Shown in pieces: positions 22,827 to 32,116 of a stretch of DNA of 56,054 bases (position 1 is its first letter; each line of letters opens with the position of its first letter). Under the pieces are notes generated by a model. It saw only the letters and a program-made list of their open reading frames with translations. It was not told the origin of the DNA and searched no databases. The stretch is taken from NCBI RefSeq assembly GCF_028712425.1, contig NZ_JAQTQD010000005.1, positions 1 to 56,054 of the forward strand. Reading direction: 5' to 3'. The translations under genes were made by a program, and so were the position numbers. The stretch comes from Methanoregula sp. (GTDB lineage: Archaea > Halobacteriota > Methanomicrobia > Methanomicrobiales > Methanospirillaceae).

Positions 22827-22941
22827 CCCTGCCCGACCCCCCCTGGCTTCCTGTGGAAGGTTTTTAGGGGATTTTTCCTTCGGAGATTCCACACGAAATT
22901 ATGGTGTTTTTTGCATACCTGAAAAGGGGGGTCGGGCAGGG
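22827..22941. repeat. long inverted repeat, MITE-like (115 bp)
   Basis: The arm CCCTGCCCGACCCCCC (22827-22842) is repeated in inverted orientation as GGGGGGTCGGGCAGGG (22926-22941), 16 bp perfect apart from one extra C beside the left arm. The 83-bp interior is AT-rich and has no gene. The size and form resemble a miniature inverted-repeat element or a large hairpin; target-site duplications are not obvious. It sits at the edge of the AT-rich island, 130 bp after the pterin dehydratase-like gene. Confidence 0.6.
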
Positions 22942-22989
22942 TAAAATTGGAAAAAAACGATCGCGTTTGAAATTTTTGCAGCGATTTCG

Positions 22990-23230
22990 TTGGGAACATT
23001 CTGTAACAAGAGAGGGTAACCTAACCCAATTAATAAGAGGCCCCCACCATTTCAAACTATTAGGGAAGATCCCCGCTCCACCCCACTCATGCCATAGGAT
23101 GTATCTACACCACCTCTTAGTGGAGCGGTTCTCTGGCACTGGATCCGGGGCAGAACCAAAGTGGGGACTACCGCCTCGGATTAATGCATGCAGGAATTGT
23201 CCCAGCTCCATCCTAATGGTATGAGAATTT
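22990..23230 (-). ncRNA. candidate structured RNA or element remnant
   Basis: This GC-rich stretch between the inverted repeat and the AT-rich genes is full of mutually complementary segments. Examples: CCGCTCCAC/GTGGAGCGG (23073-23081 with 23120-23128, perfect 9 bp), GGTTCT/AGAACC (23126-23131 with about 23152-23157), and CCCCACT/AGTGGGG (23082-23088 with about 23160-23166). The minus strand has an open frame of 115 codons (22864-23211), but it crosses the G/A-rich inverted repeat and has no ribosome-binding site. I read it as a structured, probably transcribed or element-derived sequence; which strand is transcribed is not decided. Confidence 0.3.
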
Positions 23231-23333
23231 CATATGTAAAAAAAGATTTTTCTATTTAACAGAACAATACAAAATTGTTTAAATATTATTATATTCACAA
23301 ATTAGTAGTTAATTACAAATAGGAGATTTATTC

Positions 23334-24377
23334 ATGAGCGATGAATTGGCGGAGACAAAAATTGAAAGGCTCCGTTATTTTTTCGAATTCGAAACATTAA
23401 TGGCATTGAAAGTCACTCATGAAATTACATTTTCTAATGAATCGAAAAGTCCCATTAGCACAATAAAATTCGATTTGGGCGAATATAAACCATATTTAAG
23501 GATATTCGACACCAACAATGAAATTCTAGAATTTTCCAAATCTCGGGAAGCAGGTTCTGGTGATTTTTCACAATATTTAATCGATATCAAATTGCCACAT
23601 GATCGAGAATTAAAACCAAACGAACGGCGAACGCTTATCATAAAATACGTTTCACCTTCGGGATATAACGATGATGCTCCCCAGTTCGAAAACGCACCAT
23701 ACAGTCGATTAGTGTTTGATTTAAAAGAAGAGATAAATCTCTATATTGCAATCAAATCATCAGATAATTTTCAATTTGTCGACTACCCATATATTCTCGA
23801 TAATGACGGCAATCCAATCAGAGGGGAAGTCGAGAAATTATCAAAGAAAGATAAGTTCATGCAAGATGAAAGCGGCCAAAATTCTTATTTTTCCATCAAA
23901 AGTGAGAGTAACGACAAAACATTAGTAATATACCACAGACAGGCAATTAATCAGAGTATCTCCAATTGGATCGTTGCTGGAAAATGGCTTGGAATAATTT
24001 CGGCGATTGTAATTTCATTGTTCATTGTGTCGATGTTACTCTCAAAAAATAATTTAATTGAAAGTAATTTTTTAATTTCCTATCCGGTTTTTGTAATGAC
24101 AAGCTTAGTCGTGATTAAAGGCTGGTTATTCTCTAAAGATTTAGATTCAAAACTCGAGCGATATGACAAACAGTACCTCATATTAATTGGCACATTGTTT
24201 GCAGAACTATTGTTGATCCTGCTGTTTCAATTATCTAGTCCGCAGAATCCAACCATACAGGCATGCAATATAACAGATTGCAATCAAGTGTTGAATTTTA
24301 CCTTTGATGACATTCCAACGAAATGTTCGACCATGATATCGAATAACTATAACTCAACAATAACCATTAACACGTAG
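23334..24377 (+). CDS. membrane protein of unknown function in AT-rich island (347 aa)
   Basis: I do not recognise this family. The N-terminal ~195 residues look like a beta-sandwich (alternating beta strands such as MALKVTHEITFSNESKSPIS, RTLIIKYVSP). Three transmembrane helices follow at about residues 222-240, 248-268 and 283-302, then a C-terminal tail with three cysteines and several N-x-T/S sequons (NIT, NFT, NST), which may be exposed outside the cell. The ATG is preceded by TAGGAG, and an ATATTATTATATTC promoter-like box lies about 45 bp upstream. Base composition and codon use are strongly AT-biased, unlike the flanking genes, which suggests horizontal transfer. Confidence 0.8.
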   Translation: MSDELAETKIERLRYFFEFETLMALKVTHEITFSNESKSPISTIKFDLGEYKPYLRIFDTNNEILEFSKSREAGSGDFSQYLIDIKLPHDRELKPNERRTLIIKYVSPSGYNDDAPQFENAPYSRLVFDLKEEINLYIAIKSSDNFQFVDYPYILDNDGNPIRGEVEKLSKKDKFMQDESGQNSYFSIKSESNDKTLVIYHRQAINQSISNWIVAGKWLGIISAIVISLFIVSMLLSKNNLIESNFLISYPVFVMTSLVVIKGWLFSKDLDSKLERYDKQYLILIGTLFAELLLILLFQLSSPQNPTIQACNITDCNQVLNFTFDDIPTKCSTMISNNYNSTITINT

Positions 24378-24413
24378 CAGAAATAATAGAGTAAGACCAC
24401 AACATATTAGTAT

Positions 24414-24427
24414 TTTAATCGATTAAA
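24414..24427. promoter_or_regulatory. palindrome TTTAATCGATTAAA in AT-rich island
   Basis: A perfect 14-bp palindrome 18 bp upstream of the 45-codon gene, overlapping an AT-rich TATA-like tract. It could be an operator that controls the three genes downstream, or simply part of their promoter. Confidence 0.4.
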
Positions 24428-24445
24428 CGTAGATAACGGATAAAT

Positions 24446-24583
24446 ATGACACAAGCATCAAAAGCTACACTTCTTCCAATCAAGGCATCACATGTTAGCA
24501 TGATCCGCAGTAAAAAGGAAGCGAAAGAGCTTGAGCGTAAGATTGAAGAAGATTTTCCCAAAAAGAAACGTATTGCATTGTAG
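24446..24583 (+). CDS. small basic protein in AT-rich island (45 aa)
   Basis: This short open frame starts MTQASKATLLPIKASHVSMI, then has a strongly charged Lys/Glu helix (about residues 22-38) and a basic end (KKKRIAL). The start follows a weak GATAACGGAT motif and lies 18 bp after the 14-bp palindrome. The next gene begins 8 bp after its stop, so the three open frames up to the peptidase could form one operon. It has no double-glycine leader motif, so it is not an obvious C39 substrate. It might be an inhibitor, a regulator or not a gene; confidence is limited by its size. Confidence 0.45.
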   Translation: MTQASKATLLPIKASHVSMIRSKKEAKELERKIEEDFPKKKRIAL

Positions 24584-24591
24584 AGATTAAA

Positions 24592-24792
24592 ATGGATTAC
24601 ATGCCAGACGACATTGAAATGAATTGCGTCTGGCTTGATCTTAAAATCGAAAAAACCTCCCATTCTTTTATCAGTGATCAAATCGATAAAATTGCCTTTT
24701 TCGAACAAATCAATTCAGATAATGGCAAATTATTTGAAGACATGAAGGAATGGCAAAATCGGGTTGTTCCTTATTCTCTTCCCCTTGATTAA
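24592..24792 (+). CDS. small acidic protein upstream of the peptidase-like gene (66 aa)
   Basis: This 66-residue acidic protein has no signal peptide and no recognised domain; Asp/Glu-rich and aromatic residues suggest a small soluble alpha/beta fold. It is placed 8 bp after the 45-codon frame and its stop codon is separated from the ATG of the predicted peptidase by one base, implying translational coupling. The position is that of an immunity, chaperone or inhibitor partner of the large downstream protein, but this is inference from arrangement only. Confidence 0.55.
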   Translation: MDYMPDDIEMNCVWLDLKIEKTSHSFISDQIDKIAFFEQINSDNGKLFEDMKEWQNRVVPYSLPLD

Positions 24793-24793
24793 G

Positions 24794-26287
24794 ATGACTC
24801 CGGAATCTAATGTCATCGATACCAATTCTCATGATATTGAACTTCTTATTGATAGAATAAGTTCTATCGCATATGATGATAACTTAAAAACCACCTTAGT
24901 TGTTAAATCAATAAACTGTCGAGAATGGGAGAAAGAGAAAAGCATTTTTGAGCGATATAAGTTTCCTGATGAGTATTTATCAAATAGCGATATAAAAAAA
25001 TTGGCTTCCAGATATTATGTAGAAATTCGATCACAAAAAACTACATACAACGAACATATACATTTTGGACATTTTGATTTCAGACCAACATCCGCAACAA
25101 TTTGTGATGCATTTCTTCCAATTCCTGAAAAAAACGGTTTTTTTGTTACATGTAAAAAAGCATACAAGTCTGATGATTTTGAAAATCCTACAATTTCCAC
25201 AGTACCTTACACAATGCCCGATATAAAATTAGGCGCGTGTGCACCCTCAAGTCTATGGATTATCTTGACTACATTGGCAAATGAATTAGGGCTGCAATAT
25301 TATTCACTTTCAGACATTGCATTGAATTTACCTAAAAACTCTCTCTCGAAAAATGGTATACGAGATTTTGAAGCCGTTATTAAAAAAATGAATTTTGAAT
25401 ACTATTATCATTACGGTATACCTCAAAGAGATGAGTACCAAGAAATTGAAAAAAAAATACAAACGAAATCAGAATGTAAAGGGGATTGCAAATTATCGAA
25501 ACTTTTCGCTCATATCCATACAGATTCTAAAAACATGAGTTTGATGGATTCTGATACATTATACGCCTATATTGAATCAGAAATTCCTGTGTATTTAGTT
25601 TTTGATTTTGAGAGTTTATTACTACTACCCACTTATTCTAAATGGAAAAAATCTGAAGAGTGTTCACCCACAGAAAAGGACAAGGAAAAATATCATGCTA
25701 TCGTTGCTGTTGGCCATACATTAAATAAAAATGGCGAACATCCAGATTTCATCGTTCATGATGTCGATCTAGCACCATTCATCGTGATACCTCAAGAATT
25801 TATTAATAAACATTTATTGGAGGCGTTGGTCTTACTTCCTGAAAACACAGTCCATTATACGTTTATTAAAAAAATATTTGAAGAAAAAATTTTACCAAAT
25901 TTTTTAAAAATTGATAAACATCTCGATTCACTTTCACCAATTGATGAATTAAAAATCAGACCATTCTTAATGCGCTCGCAACGTATCAAATTCTGGTTTT
26001 CTAATAAATTAAAATATCCAGAAGAAATTACCCAAATTTTTTCAGTAGCAGAATTTCCAAAATATGTATGGGTATTCGAATTTAGTAATAGTAAAACTAG
26101 AGAGAAAAATCAGTCCTTGGGTCATATAATTTTTAATGCAAGCGTATCAGCAAAACAATCCAGCCCTGTGTTAATAACATCTCCAAATTATTTATTGTGG
26201 TATGAAAATGGAGAGCTTCGAGATTCATCAAAGGACAACCCGGATTCTTTTTACTTTGGGCTATCTCTTTTTCGATGCAAAGGATAA
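24794..26287 (+). CDS. predicted C39/papain-like cysteine peptidase in AT-rich island
   Basis: This 497-residue cytoplasmic protein has no signal peptide. The middle contains a pattern typical of C39-type cysteine peptidases: a Cys at residue 149 in GACAPSSLWIILTTLANELG at the head of a helix, then SEIPVYLVFDFE, then His 301 in YHAIVAVGHTLN, then Asp 323 in PDFIVHDVDLAPF. The order Cys-His-Asp and the Val-Gly after the His match the C39_2/papain-like fold. The N-terminal ~140 and C-terminal ~150 residues are unrecognised. It shares the AT-rich codon bias of its neighbours. The catalytic assignment is by motif; the substrate is unknown. Confidence 0.62.
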   Translation: MTPESNVIDTNSHDIELLIDRISSIAYDDNLKTTLVVKSINCREWEKEKSIFERYKFPDEYLSNSDIKKLASRYYVEIRSQKTTYNEHIHFGHFDFRPTSATICDAFLPIPEKNGFFVTCKKAYKSDDFENPTISTVPYTMPDIKLGACAPSSLWIILTTLANELGLQYYSLSDIALNLPKNSLSKNGIRDFEAVIKKMNFEYYYHYGIPQRDEYQEIEKKIQTKSECKGDCKLSKLFAHIHTDSKNMSLMDSDTLYAYIESEIPVYLVFDFESLLLLPTYSKWKKSEECSPTEKDKEKYHAIVAVGHTLNKNGEHPDFIVHDVDLAPFIVIPQEFINKHLLEALVLLPENTVHYTFIKKIFEEKILPNFLKIDKHLDSLSPIDELKIRPFLMRSQRIKFWFSNKLKYPEEITQIFSVAEFPKYVWVFEFSNSKTREKNQSLGHIIFNASVSAKQSSPVLITSPNYLLWYENGELRDSSKDNPDSFYFGLSLFRCKG

Positions 26288-26361
26288 TTCTTCATTTTAC
26301 AGCATTTTCAATAATTTACTTAATGGAATATAATGTAAAAATATTGAAAATAAGAAGTCTA

Positions 26362-26444
26362 TGCGAGAAGCAGGAGTTGAACCTGCGAACCCCTTCGGGA
26401 ACAGATCTTGAGTCTGCCTCTGTTGGCCACTTAGATATTCTCGC
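26362..26444 (-). tRNA. tRNA-Leu (CAA)
   Basis: Read on the minus strand, the acceptor GCGAGAA pairs with TTCTCGC, with A as discriminator. The anticodon arm GCAGA-CTCAAGA-TCTGT gives anticodon CAA (leucine, codon UUG). A class II long variable arm (TTCCCGAAGGGG) and the TψC arm GCAGGTTCAACTCCTGC are present. CCA is not encoded. Its 3' end faces the AT-rich island, the usual arrangement for an integration site. Confidence 0.94.
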
Positions 26445-28038: not shown

Positions 28039-31000
28039 CTACATGAAGTCCGCCAACCCAAGCTGCTGCTGTTTCTCCTCACCGAACGTAGACTCGATCG
28101 CGAGGTCGATCACTTCCACCCGCTGCTTGGTGTACTCTGAAATATGGTATTTCCGGCAGATTTCGCGGGACATCTCAAGGTACTTCTTCACAGAGCCCTC
28201 GTGAACGGTGGGGATGATATTGCCATTGCAGATGCCCTTGCCCTTGAACTTCGTGCACTTGCCGGCAAGCGGCATGCGGCGGTAGCTCGTGTTACATTTC
28301 GTGCACCGGAACTTCTGCTTGGAGAAGGCAGAGAGGTTTCCCATCAGGTCGCGGATGAAATGCGTGTTTAAGACCCGCTCCGCCACATCGTCGGCATCCA
28401 CGGCCCGGATCTTCTCCGCGAGTTCGAGTTCAGCGCCGAGCTTGTCGGTCATCGTCTTCATCTGGGTATACATGGATTCGATGGGGCCGGCCGAAATATC
28501 CGAGGTGTCGTGGGTGAACTGGAACCCTTCGAGCTGGGCCGGCGTGCCGAGCCGGTTCTCGACGCGGTCGATGAGCTTGACGATGGTTTTTGGCTCCGCG
28601 TACGTGAGGGCACTCGTGTAGACCTCGATCGGGTACCGCTCGCAGACATCGACATTGAGCGCCTCCTTGTCGATCTCAGCCGGGTCGATACGGCTGGTCA
28701 GCACCAGGGGAGCGTCCATGGAACCCCCGCGGTTCTGCGGCAGGAACGAGCGGGAGAAGTTGATCAGGCCGTCGAGAAGGAGCATGATGCAGTCCTCATC
28801 GCCATCGCACTGGCCGGTGAAGATGCCATTTGCCACCAGCGTGTGGTCGTCGGCAACCGTCAGGCAGTAGACCCGCTCTTCAGGAGCCGGGACCTGTTCC
28901 GCGAGCTTGATGGTATCGGAGATGACGCAACTGCCTTCAAAAACCGGCACCGAATCACCGGGCTTGAGCTCCATTGCCCTGAGCTTGCGAAGATAGCCGG
29001 TGTCCCAGACAAGCATCGCGTGGTCGGGGGTGACGACCAGCTCCTTTCCGCGGGAGGTGGTGAACCGGATCAGCGCCGCCGGTGAACGGTGGACCGAGAC
29101 CGAGGTCACCTTCCGGAGGTGTATCTGGCCGGAGGTGTCCACGGCACGGGTCCAGAACGGCCGGGCCGGGTCCGAATAATACGTGCCGAGCCGGTCAAGG
29201 CCGGGCCGGGTGAGGTCGAAGTTCTCCAGCACGAACTTCCGGATCGGGAGCTTCTCCCACCTGCTGCCGTCGTTGACCTCGATCTCCGTCTCGCCCCAGA
29301 AGCAGTTCCGGCGTTTTGCGGCATGGAAGAACGGGTGGGCATATCCCACGTTGGCCCTTGTGAACCCGACGATCCTTGCAAGGACGCCGGCGCTCGTGTG
29401 CGGGGCAAGACCGATGACGAGATGCCCGATGAGGTCATCGGGTTTGCTGACCTTGTAGAACGGTTCAAGGCCATAGCATTTGACGAGCAGTTCATCCATG
29501 AACTTTGTCACGCTGACCAGCCATTCGGCGCAGGAGTCGGAGACAAGGATATCCTGCGGGTGAAGCTCGACCACCTGCGATCCATTCTGGAGATCGTAGC
29601 CGTGCGTGTCTTTCGTGTACCCGAGCGAACGCATCTTCTCCACAGGGACGCGGACCTCGTCCGGGCGGATGTGGGTGAGGGGCAGGTCGATCATATCGAA
29701 CCGTGTCGTGCCATCCTTGAAGACAAAGACGTTCTGCTGCGCCCGGAGAATCCCCTTCTCCATTGCCTCCACTGTCTTCTCCCTTGAGATGACTCCCTTG
29801 ACCCCCTTGACGAGTGCGATGCTGTCGGTCCTAAGGCCCATCCGCTCCATCGCCTTTGCGTACTCTGCCTTCACGTTCAGGCTGATCCGCTGGCTGCACA
29901 TGGCGGGGGCATCGCAGCTCGGGCACCGGTCCTGCGTGAGCTCGTGGCCGCACTTTGAGCAGGTGAAGAGGGCGATCGTGTGCCCCCCGCACTTGTCGCA
30001 CCGGTTCATGTAGGTTATCTCGCCGCACTGGCTGCACCGGCGCCGCCCTACTTCGATCTCGATGATCCCGCCTTCCTTCTGGAAGTCGAGGTCAACGTTG
30101 TCTGCGTCGACCTCTGCAGTGTGCGTGGAGGCGGACTGGAACGAGCGCCGGGCCCCGCCTGAGTCCCCGAGCGGGAAGAGGACATGGGGCGGCGGGTTCA
30201 TCTTCCGGGGTTTCGATTTCCCCGGCCGGCCCATGCGGCCACCGATCCGGGTACCGGAGCGGGACCGCATCTTCAGGCCGGAGAGGTGCATCACCATATC
30301 GAGAGGGGCTGCTCCTTCGGGGAGAGTCTGCCAGGTATCGCGCTTCTTCAGGCTGCCATCCAATCCGAGGCCGGCAAGGAACGTACGGTACGTGCGGATG
30401 ACGATAGTATCCTCGCGGAGATCATGGGAGAGGAGGATCTCTTCGAGAGCAGCCTTGATGGCAGGATCGGTGGGAAGATGGAGGCCGTCCTCGTGAATCG
30501 ATCCTTTTGCGGATACATACTCAGCCACTGCCCGGATCTGGTCTGTGGTGATGTCGTCCCAGAACCATGTCCACGCCGGGTGGAGATACCCCCCATTCTG
30601 TGCATACTCCAGGGCTTCTGCCTCATCCTTTGGGGGCTTCACCCCATCCCCCGCGTCAAGCAGCCACCATTCCTCGCAATACCCTGCGGGAACCAGCGGA
30701 TGGTTGTTCTCCAAAAATTCCCCGAACGAGATGAGGATCTCACCGACATCGAGGATCTTCTCGATCCCCGGGCCAAGCCGTTTTGCGGTTGCTTCATCGT
30801 CGATCCGGAGCACGCTGCCCTCCCGGAGCCGAACCGTCGGACCCTCAAGTGTATCCACCGGCACCACCCCGCAGGCCTTGCCGGGTCGCTCGGTCTTCAT
30901 CTGGGTGCCCGTGGCAAGGAACTCGCCGAGGATATAGAGCGTGGCCGGGTGCATCCCGGCAGCGGCAAACCCGGTGTTCCGTGACCTCCCGTACCGGAGC

Positions 31001-31956
31001 CGGAATCCCCCTTTGCGCATCGGGTAGGAGAATACCGGCCGGCCGCCGATGAGATCCCGGAGGTACTTGTCGAGCGGCTTGATCCCCGTGCTCTTGCCGC
31101 CATCCCCGCTCTTGGCCGCACCGGCGATCAGCTTGTCGAGCCAGTCCCAGCCCTCCATCTTCATCTTCTCGACCCGGCCTTTGAGCTTCCGGGCCTTCCC
31201 GGCAATCCCTTCACCGATGACGAGCGCCATGCCCCCCCGCACAACGTTCGTCTCCACCCGCTCCAGGTTCCGGTGGCCCGAGACCTCTTCCTGCTCGGTT
31301 GCTTCACCGTCAATGCAGACCGGGCAGTTCTCGATGATGAGCCGGATCTCGGCTTCGCTCGGGAGGTACTGGAGGTTCATGATCGAGTTGTACTGCCGGA
31401 TCTCCTCCACGTAGCGCTCCACCTCCTCCTGCCGGGCAATATACCGGTTGATCCCCAGTTTCTGGCGCACGTAGTCGCCGACCAGCACCGACATGGCCTG
31501 CGCCGTACCACCGGCACTCCGGATCGGGCCGGCATAGAAGATCATCAGGTACTGGGTCCCGTCGTCATTCTTCCCGAGCGAGACCTTGGCTATCCCTTCC
31601 GTGGGGGCGGATACGACGCCTTCTGTCAGGAGCGCCATGGCAACGCGGATGGAGTGGTCGAGCACCTCCATGATGTCCTTCTCCCCAAACCTCCGGGCAA
31701 CGAAATCGTCACCGATACGGAGGGCCGCTTCCTCGCGGGACATTGTTGCCTCGAGCTCGCGGATCCGGGCCGCAACGCCTTTGACCCCGGTCAGGACCTC
31801 CACCCGGTCAGCGAGATCACTTGCAATCGGGATCTCGACATCGGTGCTGGGGTCGAGGCCCCGTAACCGTGCCTCTTTTGCTATCGCAATCTGCTGATGG
31901 AGCCCGTCCAGCAGGGACTTCTCGTAGGCCTCCATCACGGGCGAGAGCTTGAGCAT
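28039..31956 (-). CDS. polC: DNA polymerase D large subunit DP2, with intein
   Basis: This is the catalytic subunit of the archaeal replicative polymerase PolD (euryarchaeal; partner DP1 is elsewhere). The precursor is 1305 residues, of which 165 are an intein, leaving 1140. Visible signatures: [15 protein letters not shown] near the N-terminus, [21 protein letters not shown], the catalytic segment AAKRRN/CDGDEDC that is split by the intein, [11 protein letters not shown], and zinc-binding Cys clusters (CSQCGEI, CDKCGGH, CSKCGHE, CPSC) in the central third plus CTKCNTSY near the C-terminus. I use the ATG at 31956 ([18 protein letters not shown]) because homologues begin there; the frame extends 23 codons further upstream. 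Its stop is 8 bp from hairpin array R2. Confidence 0.95.
28810..29304 (-). other. mini-intein in PolD DP2 (165 aa)
   Basis: The intein runs from Cys ([10 protein letters not shown], block A) to Gln (ANGIFTGQ, block G), with Cys as the first residue of the C-extein. Block B is VVTPDHAML (TxxH) and block [12 protein letters not shown]. At 165 residues it has no room for a homing endonuclease. The terminal residue is Gln instead of Asn and the usual penultimate His is Gly; a C-terminal Gln is known to be compatible with splicing in the Pyrococcus Pol-II intein. It is inserted in the catalytic RN/CDGDEDC motif of the polymerase, so splicing must occur for an active enzyme. Confidence 0.93.
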
Positions 31957-32116
31957 ATCTACGGATGGGCCGTGAGGGGATTTATGAGTGCTGATTAAGG
32001 AGGGGGCTGTGGAACCCTGGACCACAGGGATTTCTTACAATGGCCGGCAGGGAAAAGAGGGAGTCAAAACAGGAAAAAGGGAGGGTGATATCATGCGCTG
32101 CGAAACGCAAGCACGG

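Follow-up and report, generated by a model that had tools for sequence, protein, structure and literature searches.

A candidate conflict module with a C39-like cysteine peptidase and a small upstream partner in a tRNA-Leu island of Methanoregula

What are four foreign-looking genes doing next to a tRNA-Leu gene in the genome of Methanoregula sp.? The question is raised by a stretch of 56,054 nucleotides from contig NZ_JAQTQD010000005.1, referred to as the window in this text. An earlier note, made from the letters of the sequence, had picked out an AT-rich island of four genes ending at the 3' end of tRNA-Leu and had suggested an undescribed defence, competition or signalling module. On the forward strand, the island encodes P1 (23334–24377, 347 aa), with a beta-rich N-terminal domain and three C-terminal membrane helices; P2 (24446–24583, 45 aa), a small basic protein with the core motif ATLLPIKAS; P3 (24592–24792, 66 aa), a small partner protein with the C-terminus YSLPLD; and P4 (24794–26287, 497 aa), a homologue of C39-like cysteine peptidases with the putative catalytic residues C149, H301 and D323. 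We tentatively favour, at slightly less than an even chance, the view that the island was acquired horizontally as a conflict module, serving defence or addiction, with a core formed by the peptidase P4 under the control of its small partner P3.

The island is an insertion. ARAGORN and Rfam place a tRNA-Leu (CAA) gene at 26362–26444 on the reverse strand, and the island abuts its 3' end at 26362. The GC content is 31–36% between about 23000 and 26350, compared to about 55–62% outside, so that the open reading frames (ORFs), the drop in GC and the tRNA prediction all agree with the island as first described. We could also compare relatives that lack it. In two congeneric genomes (G035 and G041), whose flanking DNA is 88–91% identical to the window flanks, only 36–41 bp lie between the equivalents of window positions 22977 and 26361. 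About 3.38 kb must therefore have been gained in the window or lost in the relatives. The inserted segment, to which no strand is assigned, covers 22978–26360, with a left edge that is uncertain by about 40 bp; the limits of 23230–26361 given in the earlier note are thus right at the tRNA and slightly too narrow on the other side. Since P1 and P4 have no copy in the 107 other genomes of the family searched and the island is foreign in composition, a gain is far more likely than a loss in the relatives.

The island shares its position at a tRNA 3' end with tRNA-targeting integrative elements, but an integrase and a duplicated tRNA end are missing. No integrase or transposase is present among its ORFs, as the earlier note had already stated, and no direct repeat of the tRNA end (attL/attR) was found around the insertion, including in the empty-site comparison. 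A tRNA-integrating element with attL and attR was ruled out on these grounds. The part of the insertion between 23000 and 23230 is non-coding, has an intermediate GC content and finds no match in 20 related genomes; it may be what is left of the vehicle on which the island arrived.

Purifying selection acts on all four genes. Comparison with homologues showed that substitutions cluster at third codon positions, even in the 45 codons of P2, and the nonsynonymous rate (dN) is roughly 0.1–0.4 of the synonymous rate (dS) where dS can be estimated. The tiny ORFs P2 and P3 are thus real genes, as are P1 and P4. P3 has homologues in L008, L023 and L028.

The earlier note had reasoned that a real system should recur elsewhere, and the gene set does recur: the full P1-P2-P3-P4 cassette, in the same order and on the same strand, is found at three further loci. 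In one of them (G193, locus L008) the P1 copy is broken; in another, from Methanoculleus sp. FWC-SCC1 (G534, loci L023/L029), P4 is interrupted by an insertion sequence. The third lies on a contig filed under two unrelated bacterial metagenome-assembled genomes, one of Bacteroidota and one of Pelotomaculum (L028 and L030). Where the two versions overlap they are almost the same, which means that one of them, if not both, must be misbinned. None of the four genes has a clear match to a housekeeping or phage structural function.

The cassette can also be found in parts. P1 and P2 occur without P3 and P4 in G517 (L024) and at a second locus of G193 (L022), and P2 follows P1 directly on its 3' side in all six cassette-type P1 loci. 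A pair of the P3-P4 type, without P1 and P2, is spread across archaea and bacteria. The tight packing pointed out in the earlier note (gaps of 8 bp between P2 and P3 and of 1 bp between P3 and P4) is confirmed, but the four genes do not form one indivisible operon. Judging from this distribution, the conserved core is the small protein P3 together with the peptidase P4, and P1 and P2 are best read as a lineage-specific extension of it.

P4 belongs to a wider family of C39-peptidase-like proteins. Scans with the single P4 sequence returned nothing from genome contigs or viral contigs, and alignments of its relatives were needed to detect the family. With a profile built from seven relatives, members were found in 18 of the 393 genomes of the phylum. 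Starting from these, the family could be traced to plasmids of Hymenobacter, Shewanella, Pseudomonas and Mesorhizobium, to two IMG/VR contigs and to genomic islands of E. coli chromosomes. Two homologues, L008 (48% identical to P4) and L098 from a P. aeruginosa plasmid, exceed the cut-off of 24 bits for the Pfam family Peptidase_C39_2 (PF13529), with 26.0 and 24.7 bits, respectively. Of the 24 aligned members, 23 retain the counterpart of C149, 23 that of H301 and all 24 that of D323. P4 is accordingly predicted to have peptidase activity, and the name of cysteine peptidase given to it in the earlier note is supported. Only one lineage departs from the pattern, in E. coli (19 genomes, at least 99% identical), where tyrosine replaces both the cysteine and the histidine. 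Its reading frame (L109:6219-8267, in E. coli W2-5 and 18 other genomes) is intact despite these exchanges, providing a natural inactive control. Sequence profiles from PDB gave only chance matches.

The second constant element is a small gene in front of the peptidase. Immediately upstream of the peptidase gene and on the same strand, 21 of 24 loci have an ORF of about 50–80 aa, often overlapping the gene or only a few bases apart. An automatic count over 22 loci, before the two E. coli loci joined the set, gave such an ORF in 18 of them; for other long ORFs at these loci, the figure was 22 of 94 (Fisher p = 6e-7, a value that overstates the strength of the association because related loci are treated as independent). 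This count missed P3 of the window itself, since the longest P4 ORF starts at an upstream TTG.

Many of these small proteins end alike. The C-terminal motif [FMYC][ST][ILV] is present in 10 of 17 small proteins from outside the cassette (as FTI, FTV, MSV, MTI, CSL or YSL) and in 1 of 22 small ORFs used as controls. We defined the motif with the sequences already in view, and the number of independent cases is below ten, because six of the ten are archaeal, some of them closely related, and L101 and L108 are near-identical. In the cassettes, YSL stands three residues before the C-terminus of the small protein (YSLPTD). The small partner in the catalytically dead E. coli lineage ends in YEA and has lost the motif. 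The joint loss of active site and tail is a single coincidence, which fits, without proving it, a contact between tail and active site.

The surroundings of the pairs look like those of defence or addiction modules, albeit in a small sample. On plasmids, the pair adjoins a caspase-domain gene and a DEAD/DEAH helicase in Hymenobacter, a TrlF-family ATPase in Shewanella, a multiubiquitin-ThiF-DUF6527 operon in P. aeruginosa and multiubiquitin and ThiF genes in Mesorhizobium. Two of the four plasmid pairs are thus located beside multiubiquitin/ThiF genes (L098:6683-9031 and L099:11488-13660), which may be a chance co-location or a functional link. The pair of E. coli R2 adjoins an FRG-domain gene, with restriction enzymes further along, and that of E. 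coli W2-5 lies next to an integrase at tRNA-Pro and an ABC-three-component/Lmu-like system. Among archaeal members outside the cassette, L085 is found near a restriction-modification gene and L084 near a primase-polymerase gene. It is solely this neighbourhood, together with the mobility of the family, that suggests a role in defence.

P1 agrees with the membrane protein expected from the earlier note. Both the model and the hydropathy profile show three hydrophobic segments C-terminal to the beta-rich domain. Because the C-terminal tail contains many Asn, Ser and Thr residues and few charged ones, the C-terminus likely is outside and the N-terminal domain in the cytosol. Calling P1 a sensor, as the earlier note did, is a guess. 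The AlphaFold model of P1, made from a three-sequence alignment, has a predicted local distance difference test score (pLDDT) of 53. Its Foldseek matches were ligand-gated channels; as none had an E-value below 0.001 and TM-scores (template modelling scores) were low, we treated them as meaningless. Distant homologues of P1 occur without the other cassette genes. G193 has two loci at which P1 homologues carry an N-terminal acylphosphatase fusion (L022:6946-8274 and L008:7739-8107), and near the P1 loci of two genomes we noticed an HD-domain gene and, behind it, a gene whose C-terminal part has a DarG-like match (L023:2620-4508 and L024:12071-13968). For P2, we considered a cut-down ASCH/PUA-like domain, since the motif ALLSVKAPYAEIIQGKK of L022 resembles an ASCH N-terminus. 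With a hhalign probability of 5% and a best hmmsearch E-value of 0.003 for a set of six sequences, this relationship is not claimed.

How could such a module work? In our proposal, P4 would be a cytosolic cysteine peptidase of the papain/C39 fold that is made together with the small helical protein P3. The C-terminal tail of P3 would be recognised by P4, either as a plug that keeps the peptidase off or as a substrate. In Methanomicrobiales, two further proteins would extend this core: the membrane protein P1, whose beta-rich domain would lie in the cytosol and which may serve as target or anchor of P4, and the small basic P2. Infection or loss of the element would remove P3, and the active peptidase would then cleave P1, other host proteins or both, so that growth stops. 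A bolder version holds that P3-P4 is the core of an undescribed protease immune system of archaea and bacteria, in which the free tail [FMYC][ST][ILV]-COOH, bound in the C39-fold active site or cut there, acts as on/off switch, and in which the released peptidase of methanogens cleaves P1 and thereby kills or arrests the infected cell. In this full form the proposal is unlikely to hold.

Several observations weigh against the proposal of a conflict module. The profiles of PADLOC-DB 2.0.0 did not match any of P1–P4, in line with the earlier note, which saw no known defence gene in the island, nor did they match the wider family convincingly. With 16.4 bits against 24, P4 itself falls short of the PF13529 cut-off. 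The earlier note had looked to structure prediction for an answer, but the P4 model (pLDDT 43, from a three-sequence alignment) found only ribosomal proteins in Foldseek, none with an E-value below 0.001 and all with low TM-scores, so that neither P1 nor P4 has a significant structural match. Catalysis is not always needed, because the dead version persists in 19 E. coli genomes. The small upstream gene is absent in L091, L092 and L093, and in about seven pairs the small protein has no tail motif, even with the catalytic residues of the peptidase in place. Outside the cassette, the small proteins have diverged so far that they cannot be aligned reliably or proven homologous. Finally, several distant archaeal members are flanked by ordinary genes.

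A rival explanation is that the module serves addiction only. The peptidase would then be a growth-arresting toxin and the small gene its antitoxin, carried by plasmids and islands for their own inheritance, and P1 and P2 would be passengers or accessories. The position of the small gene in the 21 loci and the four plasmid copies fit this explanation, and the arrangement of a larger gene with a small one right in front of it, on the same strand and on plasmids and islands, is reminiscent of type II toxin-antitoxin pairs. The resemblance is one of gene layout; no known toxin or antitoxin family was recognised, and no DNA-binding domain was found in any of the small proteins. Moreover, at four loci P1 and P2 have stayed with the pair in the same order and under selection, and about a fifth of the family, in one E. 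coli lineage, is catalytically dead but has been retained. We consider pure addiction unlikely. A non-defensive cargo, that is, a fast-evolving peptidase family with a role in regulation or proteome maintenance that merely travels on mobile elements, seems to us to be about as unlikely. It would explain why members adjoin primase-polymerase genes and sit on plasmids, why the P1 homologue of L025 lies beside a tyrosine integrase and why some archaeal members have ordinary neighbours, but not why the E. coli copies adjoin recognised defence candidates. A role in the service of viruses is disfavoured by the absence of the family from phage genomes, where no P4 homologue was found, and by only two matches (IMG/VR contigs) among 2.9 million viral contigs.

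A C39-type domain adjoining two small genes also brings peptide maturation to mind. P4 would trim P2 or P3 and so release a peptide with a signalling or antimicrobial role, in the way that C39 peptidases process double-glycine bacteriocin precursors, and P1 would be the export or immunity protein. Archaeal islands carrying C39 peptidases and double-glycine peptides have been described (PMC6393860). Archaeal dark-matter islands with such peptidases (arCOG10864 and the locus in Figure 2E of PMC6393860) resemble the present one in having a C39-type peptidase among unknown small genes, but there the peptidases go with pseudomurein-binding domains or with double-glycine peptides, and the present island has neither. 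The bacteriocin-processing peptidases of ATP-binding cassette (ABC) exporters (PF03412) belong to the same peptidase fold group and likewise have small genes nearby, but PF03412 gave only a weak match, in L091. Neither P2 nor P3 contains a Gly-Gly site, no small protein has a signal-like hydrophobic stretch, and no ORF for an ABC exporter lies in or beside the island or next to the pair in the bacterial neighbourhoods. We regard this explanation as improbable, and as the least probable of those considered.

The conflict module we favour resembles known systems in part. With the Peptidase_C39_2 family, papain-fold cysteine peptidases, it shares the above-threshold members L008 and L098 and the expected order of Cys, His and Asp; it differs in the sub-threshold score of P4, in extra N- and C-terminal regions and in the dedicated small upstream gene. 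By analogy only, it may be likened to bacterial gasdermin systems, in which a protease is encoded with a membrane partner in defence islands, but the protease family is a different one, and P1 has predicted stable membrane helices, no match to gasdermin or any other family in Pfam and no gasdermin match in the fold search, the latter made with a poor model. Peptidase-based conflict systems are already known, and the present module looks like a new variant of them. Neither P1–P4 nor the pair is named in Pfam, PADLOC-DB 2023, NCBIfam 2026, PHROGs or PDB, and the open-access literature, a coverage that leaves out most subscription papers and all bioRxiv preprints, yielded no account of a defence role for a C39-like peptidase paired with a small protein, nor any of the accessions. 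If the function holds, archaea and bacteria would share a peptidase-based system that the PADLOC release used here does not contain. A family of peptidases that annotations still call hypothetical would gain a function, and orphan small genes would be tied to a mechanism, the recognition of their tail by the peptidase. The proposal can be tested in the laboratory with the two-gene pair of E. coli strain R2 and the naturally dead relative from the 19 E. coli genomes.

Some minor features of the window remain to be mentioned. Upstream of P1, a putative promoter region on the forward strand (23278–23325) can be read from the sequence, with the TATA-like element TTTAAATA at 23278–23285 and an AGGAG ribosome-binding site at 23321–23325. 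A conserved structured RNA at 22970–23232 was rejected, as the fold z-score was -1.27 and Rfam returned, at a lax threshold, only the tRNA and an overlapping sub-threshold match. The structured element that the earlier note had seen at the island edge does exist as a perfect 16-bp inverted repeat at 22827–22842 and 22926–22941 (CCCTGCCCGACCCCCC/GGGGGGTCGGGCAGGG, with an 83-nt spacer), with a pterin dehydratase-like gene on one side and the tRNA on the other. Both empty-site genomes have it, however, which makes it part of the backbone and not of the island. Beyond the tRNA, the gene for the large subunit of DNA polymerase II (DP2/PolC, 28039–32025, reverse strand) harbors a short intein at about 28807–29304, which at about 165 aa is too small to leave room for a homing endonuclease.

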